A stretch of 64,000 bases of DNA from an uncultured Clostridia bacterium. GTDB taxonomy: Bacteria > Bacillota > Clostridia > Oscillospirales > Ruminococcaceae. Made by a program: the position numbers and the translations under genes. A model generated the notes under the pieces. It worked only from the letters and a program-made list of their open reading frames with translations. It searched no databases and was not told the DNA's origin. Where the stretch lies: contig CALWZO010000008.1 of the NCBI GenBank assembly GCA_944386045.1, positions 1 to 64,000 of the forward strand. Direction: 5' to 3'. Of this stretch, positions 18,485-54,276 are shown one piece after another. The stretch's first letter is position 1. The number at the start of each line of letters is the position of its first letter.

Positions 18485-18513
18485 TTGACTGTTTTATCTG
18501 ATTGTGGTACAAT
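18485..18513 (+). promoter_or_regulatory. Promoter of the ABC-F leader
   Basis: TTGACT (18485-18490), a 17-base spacer and TACAAT (18508-18513). It would give a leader of about 240 bases before the ABC-F start codon. Confidence 0.8.
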
Positions 18514-18544
18514 TACACAGAAATATGAAAAGTAAGGTGAAAAG

Positions 18545-18568
18545 ATGTTTAATTTTTCTTGCATGTAA
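18545..18568 (+). CDS. Seven-residue leader peptide MFNFSCM
   Basis: A short reading frame directly after AAGGTGAAAAG, a good ribosome binding site at proper spacing. It lies between the promoter and an intrinsic terminator, upstream of an ABC-F resistance-type gene, where short stalling peptides are common. Bases 18556-18563 (TTCTTGCA), inside the frame, are exactly complementary to TGCAAGAA at 18700-18707 in the terminator's left arm. Translation of the frame is inferred. Confidence 0.6.
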   Translation: MFNFSCM

Positions 18569-18693
18569 ATTGAAATATGCATTGATTCTGTTATGATACA
18601 GTGTTGGTGTGTCCATTGCAGGAAAGTTAAAAGTCTGTTCACTCGGAATATTGTATTTATGCCGCCCGTGAAGGGTGATGTTGTTATACTGTG

Positions 18694-18739
18694 AAGAGCT
18701 GCAAGAATTGGCTTTCTTGCGGCTCTTATTTTTATTTTT
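18694..18739 (+). terminator. Attenuator in the ABC-F leader
   Basis: AAGAGC-T-GCAAGAA pairs with TTCTTGC-G-GCTCTT, a 14-pair stem with one G-T wobble, followed by ATTTTTATTTTT. It stands 20 bases before the ABC-F ATG and its binding site, so read-through is needed for expression. Confidence 0.85.
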
Positions 18740-18758
18740 GATAAAGGAGGATTGAGAT

Positions 18759-22565: not shown

Positions 22566-22778
22566 TAAAACGCAACCCGAAGGTTGCGTGTTTTTTTATA
22601 TATATAAACCCGCCAAGCCGTATGTGGCTATATTAGAACCCGGCTTGTAAAGCTAGGGTGGATATGCCGCGCTGTCCGCTTCATGTTCCCTTCTTCCCCG
22701 GTGGGGGAGGTCTACAATTCCCGGCCAGACAACAGCCTCCGATAAATATAGTTGTAGGATTAAAAATAACCACATTTT
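22566..22778 (-). ncRNA. Candidate 6S RNA upstream of tcdA
   Basis: A non-coding stretch able to fold into one long, interrupted hairpin. CTATATT (22628-22634) pairs with AATATAG (22745-22751) and ATGTGG (22622-22627) with CCACAT (22770-22775). Inside, GCTGT (22671-22675) pairs with ACAGC (22732-22736), and the CTTCCCC/GGGGGAGG apex lies at 22692-22710. A small hairpin occupies one side of the central bubble, on the 3' side if read leftward, as in 6S RNA. A terminator (ACGCAACC/GGTTGCGT, then TTTTATTTT) ends it leftward at about 22566. From memory, B. subtilis 6S-1 RNA also lies beside the tcdA homolog. The promoter is not clear and the strand is inferred. Confidence 0.5.
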
Positions 22779-22829
22779 ATCGCACAAGACAGGCTTATAC
22801 GCTTGATATTTTGCAAAGAAACAGCCGGA

Positions 22830-54046: not shown

Positions 54047-54270
54047 AAAAAAACACCTGCATCCCAAACGGGATGAGGTGTGTCATACCCCACGGTTCCA
54101 CCCGAATTGCAGAAATTATCTGCCACTCTTGAAAGATATAACGGTCTTGCCCGGGCAAAGTTCGCTTTGCCGCTCTGCGGTGGTACCTTACACCTGGCTT
54201 TTGCCTTTTTTCACCGGCCAAAGGCTCTCTGAAAAAGCGTTGGTATAAAACATGTCCGCATCAATGCTTT
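54047..54270 (-). promoter_or_regulatory. T-box riboswitch of thrS
   Basis: Reading leftward, a stem I region with the AGAGAG element and GGTACC (a likely ACC Thr specifier near 54177-54186) is followed by the T-box sequence GGGTGGAACCGTGG (54090-54103). Then a terminator ACACCTGCATCCC/GGGATGAGGTGT (54053-54082) with a run of seven T follows. Uncharged tRNA-Thr would pair with the TGGAAC bulge and form the antiterminator. Placed 60 bases before the thrS start. Confidence 0.93.
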
Positions 54271-54276
54271 ATTGTT

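Follow-up and report, generated by a model that had tools for sequence, protein, structure and literature searches.

A candidate ribosome-mediated transcription attenuator with a reading frame of variable length upstream of Lsa-family ABC-F genes in Bacillota

The leader in front of the ABC-F gene

The window, i.e., the whole stretch of DNA analysed here, comprises 64,000 nucleotides of a contig from an uncultured Clostridia bacterium (CALWZO010000008.1). It carries a gene for an Lsa-family ABC-F ribosomal protection protein, preceded by a putative promoter, a short upstream open reading frame (uORF) with its own Shine-Dalgarno (SD) sequence and an intrinsic terminator (Table 1). All of these were found where the original prediction had placed them, the promoter by consensus alone. 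The promoter boxes, TTGACT (18485-18490) and TACAAT (18508-18513), match the consensus in 10 of 12 positions with a spacer of 17 nt, but as chance would give 2.1 such sites in 800 nt we consider the promoter as plausible only. The terminator (18694-18727) has 14 pairs, a loop of 6 and a T-rich tail; two terminator-like sites were found versus 0.5 expected by chance. The uORF reads ATG TTT AAT TTT TCT TGC ATG TAA, and its SD core, AAGGTG, is modest, the family consensus being GAGGTG or GGAG. The leader folds with a z-score of -5.15 relative to shuffled sequences, none of 200 shuffles being as good. No family in Rfam 15 matched the leader above its gathering threshold. Elsewhere in the window, Rfam matches were obtained for 6S RNA (22603-22798, minus strand) and a T-box leader (54066-54273, minus strand).

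The exact complementarity noticed earlier between TTCTTGCA in the uORF (18556-18563) and TGCAAGAA in the left arm of the terminator (18700-18707) was confirmed. A second complement of the same uORF region, segment B, had been overlooked, and it is the stronger and the conserved partner. Segment B is complementary to segment A in the uORF and also to the terminator loop together with the 3' arm (segment D). A hairpin of TGCAT (18560-18564) with ATGCA (18577-18581), proposed as a competitor, is present as well; its conservation did not hold up, most relatives having AAA, AGA or a stop codon after TGC, and ATGCA belongs to the conserved inner hairpin.

Table 1. Features of the leader and the ABC-F gene in the window (all on the plus strand).
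Feature	Position	Basis or remark
Putative sigma-A type promoter, TTGACT-17-TACAAT, extended -10	18485-18513 (+)	Consensus match only
uORF SD, AAGGTGA	18534-18540 (+)	Silent-state partner is element E (helix P0)
uORF ATGTTTAATTTTTCTTGCATGTAA (MFNFSCM)	18545-18568 (+)	1-7 codons in relatives
Segment A (AATTTTTCTTGCAT), 5' strand of the anti-antiterminator helix P1	18551-18564 (+)	A:B co-adaptation
Inner hairpin P2, apex of P1	18577-18612 (+)	MFE; position kept in alignments A1 and A2
Segment B (TTGCAGGAAAGTTA), partner of A if silent, of D if induced	18616-18629 (+)	Pairing counts and swap tests
Element E (AAAGTCTGTTCACTC), partner of the uORF SD in P0	18630-18644 (+)	SD:E swap test
Intermediate hairpin, within the long B:D antiterminator	18663-18677 (+)	Stem call; antiterminators of relatives folded at full length
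Segment C, 5' arm of the intrinsic terminator	18696-18707 (+)	Terminator call; C:D covariation
Segment D (TTGGCTTTCTTGCGGCTC), terminator loop and 3' arm, loop bases as toehold for B	18708-18725 (+)	B:D counts, swap test
T-rich tract of the terminator	18728-18739 (+)	Terminator call
SD of the ABC-F gene	18744-18750 (+)	Unpaired in MFE
Lsa-family ABC-F ribosomal protection protein, 492 aa	18759-20237 (+)	NF000167, 769 bits (cut-off 750)

Distribution of the leader and the genes downstream

A sequence search returned 80 Lsa-family loci from other genomes, 78 of which were not truncated upstream, and the same leader was found at 49 of these 78 usable loci. The layout was shared, comprising the SD, a uORF which usually reads M-x-N-F-S-C-K/R, a hairpin, TTGCAAGAAAGTTA, a TCTATTCACTC-like element, the intermediate hairpin and the terminator GAGCTGCAAGAATTGACTTTCTTGCAGCTC. 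About 120 related leaders were collected from Bacillota, all built on four conserved RNA segments, of which A lies inside or adjoins the uORF while C and D are the terminator arms. A covariance model (R1), restricted to the 5' part of the leader, was used to search three draws of genomes. It matched in 24 of 398 from the phylum of the window, in 25 of 391 from its class and in 26 of 300 from the Bacillus-type class; the draws overlap, so that some genomes occur in more than one, and the weakest few matches are false. The real matches were nearly always followed by an Lsa gene and were spread across Clostridia and Bacilli. Low-scoring matches lacking the gene or the terminator (L111, L113, L114, and L122), and one lacking both (L163), were regarded as false or decayed. 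A pattern scan of viral contigs gave one match.

A few leaders stood in front of other genes. One preceded a non-Lsa ABC-F gene (L138; 27% identical; NF000355, 421 bits), two preceded broken lsa remnants (L097 and L102), and two, both with AUG-stop uORFs, preceded Cfr-family 23S rRNA methyltransferases (L180 and L187; TIGR04432, 622 and 640 bits, respectively, cut-off 550). The latter two loci have a second conserved short frame before cfr. A plasmid of Enterococcus faecium also carries the present leader at its lsa(E) gene (L156), with a uORF reading MYNFSC-stop. This leader region was matched in 111 plasmid records, mostly from Enterococcus, and no annotated feature lay under it among the matches listed. 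In plasmids NZ_OU015353.1, LR961954.1, and NZ_CP131850.1 a single place accounted for only 26-64% of the query, the lsa(E) leader.

Within the genus of the window, two genomes (G403 and G405; loci L120 and L121) have a two-codon leader (ATGAGATAG) before an Lsa gene which is about 61% identical to that of the window. A second short uORF, located 3' of the leader and adjoining the gene, was observed at L004-L009, L012, L013, and L045 (MNSAEQIVTHDSLRIVSV... in gut Clostridia); lsa(E) is also preceded by a second short uORF (L156, locus positions 620-1000), unlike the one in gut Clostridia. The tandem of leader and second uORF suggests transcription and translation attenuation in series.

Pairings, reading frames and the response to a ribosome

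In 37 aligned leaders, 95.5% of the cells of A:B and C:D were paired, with 12 doubly changed pairs versus a shuffle mean of 6.0 (0 of 500 shuffles as high), and 94.9% of the cells of B:D were paired, with 7 doubly changed pairs versus 2.9 in shuffles. The energy cost of exchanging partners between leaders was further compared for 81 leaders less than 75% identical. This swap test gave z-scores of -9.5 for A:B, -9.8 for B:D and -13.9 for C:D, versus -1.7 for A:C (-1.5 to -1.7 when a smaller set is included); kinship among the sampled sequences inflates such scores, that of A:C equally. The results support the roles of A:B as anti-antiterminator, B:D as antiterminator involving the terminator loop and 3' arm, and C:D as terminator. 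The SD and element E were likewise co-adapted (z -8.3), and P0 was present in the MFE structure of 82 of 82 leaders. As this pairing lies below A:B, the silent hairpin would therefore also hide the uORF from new ribosomes. The A:C pairing, originally put forward as a possible antiterminator, was rejected. It is not co-adapted, and its polarity is wrong because a ribosome stalled on the uORF would cover A, giving the opposite effect. We consider the complementarity of A and C a by-product of the likeness of A to D.

The uORFs were surveyed in 123 leader rows, in which a few genomes occur twice. Lengths of 7, 6, 3, 2 or 1 codons were seen, and the TGC of segment A occurred in all three frames relative to the uORF (88/26/9). 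AUG-stop uORFs (ATGTAA, ATGTAG, ATGTGA) accounted for 16 rows, including the ambiguous L165, and two-codon uORFs, e.g., M-K-stop, for 15; segment A was retained in all 33 leaders with uORFs of 1-3 codons. The distance from the A of AUG to the T of the TGC was 13-16 nt throughout, apart from one outlier of 24 with a GTG at 15, placing segment A within the footprint of a ribosome at the start codon. On the ABC-F tree, uORFs of 2-3 codons required 11 changes, at least four of them forced by starred branches, and AUG-stop uORFs required four, at least one of them forced. One sister pair combined MINFSC (L135, ATGATTAATTTTTCTTGC) with MI-stop (L140, ATGATTTAATTTTCTTGC).

These observations bear on the possibility that MFNFSCM, or MxNFSC in the family, arrests the ribosome as a nascent peptide in a drug-dependent manner, as ErmCL does, with A:C as the antiterminator. 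The FSC residues are conserved among the uORFs of 6-7 codons, being present in most of them, and A and C are exactly complementary in the window, as such peptide arrest would have it. However, the polarity and the swap scores of A:C given above argue against it, and a peptide conserved for stalling is not seen at the family level, where uORFs have 1-7 codons in all frames and some leaders read the retained segment A in another frame, as part of MDNFLA. Moreover, the FSC codons are nearly only TTT, TCT or TCC, and TGC, which is what A:B pairing demands, so that FSC is mostly a readout of the RNA element TTTTCTTGC. Because the uORF changes frame and shrinks as far as AUG-stop while the distance from AUG to A stays, the sequences indicate that the peptide is dispensable in evolution and is not the sensor of the family. 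The peptide may still contribute in the uORFs of 6-7 codons, yet peptide arrest as the general explanation is improbable.

Folding with a ribosome held on the uORF, a check suggested in the original prediction, was modelled by masking positions -20 to +15 around the uORF AUG with soft penalties. Without the ribosome, A:B and C:D were formed in 80 of 82 leaders. With the ribosome at the AUG, 81 of 82 leaders favoured B:D while D was growing (median -6.4 kcal/mol), compared with 3 of 82 without it. The number of leaders flipped, out of 81, was 39, 47, 64 and 80 when the mask edge was moved to +5, +9, +12 and +15, respectively, while masking only upstream of the AUG flipped 15 and masking downstream of A flipped 8. 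The relatives thus shifted to B:D, whereas the gain in the window itself was small: the antiterminator was only weakly favoured with the ribosome, at most by -2.9 kcal/mol, and at full D the final equilibrium structure was back at C:D. Read-through in the window would therefore depend on kinetics. In about half of the leaders the equilibrium at full D prefers C:D with the ribosome present. The terminator loop, TTRACTTTC, is conserved, likely because B reaches D through the loop bases before C:D closes. The segments and their co-adaptation, the fixed distance from AUG to A, the variable uORF, the target genes and the folding response are all read directly from the sequences.

Proposed mechanism and comparison with known attenuators

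The leader in the window is very probably a ribosome-mediated transcription attenuator which senses a ribosome stuck at or just after the start codon. As in other such attenuators of resistance ABC-F genes, there is a short uORF with an SD and an intrinsic terminator between the uORF and the gene; comparison and folding support mutually exclusive conserved pairings that a ribosome on the uORF would switch. In the silent state, after the leader ribosome has gone, A would pair with B to form P1, which encloses P2, while P0 would cover the uORF SD; with B occupied, C:D would form and RNA polymerase would terminate. In the induced state, a drug acting at the peptidyl-transferase centre would arrest the ribosome at the start codon of the uORF, with its leading edge (about +15) covering A. 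The free B would then capture the emerging D, first at the bases of the terminator loop, and B:D would block C:D, allowing transcription of the ABC-F gene. Lincosamides, pleuromutilins and streptogramin A would be the expected inducers. Transcription of the leader, its induction, the drug classes and the kinetics are what we infer here. On an ABC-F uORF, that of vmlR, the 30S initiation complex gives a toeprint at +16 from the start codon (PMC9226507), and lincosamides, pleuromutilins and streptogramin A have been shown by toeprinting to stall ribosomes at the start codons of ABC-F uORFs (PMC12421871). Drug-responsive attenuation by the ribosome, the architecture originally proposed, is well supported by comparative anatomy; the A:C pairing and the emphasis on the peptide did not survive.

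In working, the element resembles the leader of vmlR from Bacillus subtilis (uORF MIN; Takada et al., 2022, PMC9226507), which likewise has the uORF inside an anti-antiterminator hairpin, an intermediate hairpin, a terminator, an ABC-F target and an antiterminator freed by a drug-stalled ribosome. However, a vmlR-like locus of B. atrophaeus (AACTAATCTTATTTT, AGGATTAG, terminator 5' arm CTAATCCT) has no segments in common with the present element. By inspection its B appears to pair with the 5' arm of the terminator, whereas in the present element B pairs with the loop and the 3' arm. The vmlR-type segments ACTAATCTTATTTT / AGGATTAG / CTAATCCTTCC were absent from the present leader family. Since sequence membership thus fails and the antiterminator takes the 3' side of the terminator, we regard the element as vmlR-type in working and distinct in sequence, in effect a new sequence family. 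By contrast, lsa(B) and Bacillus Lsa genes have vmlR-type leaders and are not preceded by the present element. A vmlR-like attenuator (ATGATTAACTAATCT or a variant) followed by a VTHVILRISR-like uORF was observed at lsa(B) of Staphylococcus and at Lsa genes of Bacillus/Priestia (L155, 550-1000; L157, 550-1000; L123, 1100-1500). From such vmlR-like leaders before lsa(B) and Lsa genes, leaders appear to have been exchanged between ABC-F subfamilies.

The enterococcal LsaA leader (uORF MAGN; Obana et al., 2023, PMC10201436) also lies upstream of Lsa-family genes. The Enterococcus-type loci compared (L193-L217) mostly carry another conserved leader (GTGAGGGATCC...TTGAAAAACTAA...GAAGCTGCAT) without the A/B/D segments, and no segments in common with the MAGN leader were found. 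The are5sc and tiaA leaders of Streptomyces (PMC12421871) resemble ours in start-codon stalling, toeprinted there and proposed here, but differ in genes, uORFs (MLV and MVGDDDISG) and phylum, and an AUG-stop uORF was not reported. Control of a Cfr gene by uORFs has been proposed for the cfr leader of pSCFS1 (PMC8752094), which has two overlapping uORFs before the ribosome binding site, whereas the two cfr loci found here have the present element with AUG-stop uORFs.

The cplR leader of Clostridioides difficile (uORF MRI; PMC10201436), whose gene is induced by lincomycin and retapamulin, shares a very short uORF and a terminator with the present leader. There the SD of the gene is sequestered by the stem of the terminator, and translational attenuation of this kind, through control of the access to the SD of the ABC-F gene, could be the chief function here as well, all the more as several relatives have a second uORF adjoining the gene SD. 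We find this very unlikely, as the gene SD in the window is outside the terminator and unpaired, and the conserved unit ends in the terminator and T tract. An attenuator for amino-acid starvation reading Phe, Ser or Cys codons would account for the Phe-Ser-Cys codons conserved in one subclass, but can practically be dismissed in view of the AUG-stop and M-K-stop versions without these codons and of targets which confer resistance to peptidyl-transferase-centre drugs.

Sensing of a ribosome stuck at the start codon thus stays the preferred reading. On balance we favour, with some reserve, a portable and peptide-free sensor of this kind, with a uORF reducible to AUG-stop without loss, serving resistance families unrelated to each other: Lsa genes (including mobile lsa(E)), another ABC-F gene and Cfr. 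The AUG-stop sensors are the unusual part of the family. In the open-access literature, to which our survey was confined, neither the present leader nor any antibiotic sensor with an AUG-stop uORF was found to be described.

The leader is thus an RNA element without a description in the open-access literature surveyed, and it probably controls much of the Lsa family among Bacillota of gut and soil. It probably also controls the mobile and clinically spreading lsa(E) of enterococci, staphylococci and Listeria, in which the leader carries no annotation; some lsa(E) copies may have lost the attenuator. The element predicts which drugs would induce these genes and offers one reason for disagreement between genotype and phenotype. 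Why uORF identities differ among ABC-F leaders of similar drug spectra has been raised as a question (PMC10201436). The AUG-stop sensors would represent a minimal ribosome-stalling regulator, one which cleanly parts start-codon arrest from peptide arrest.
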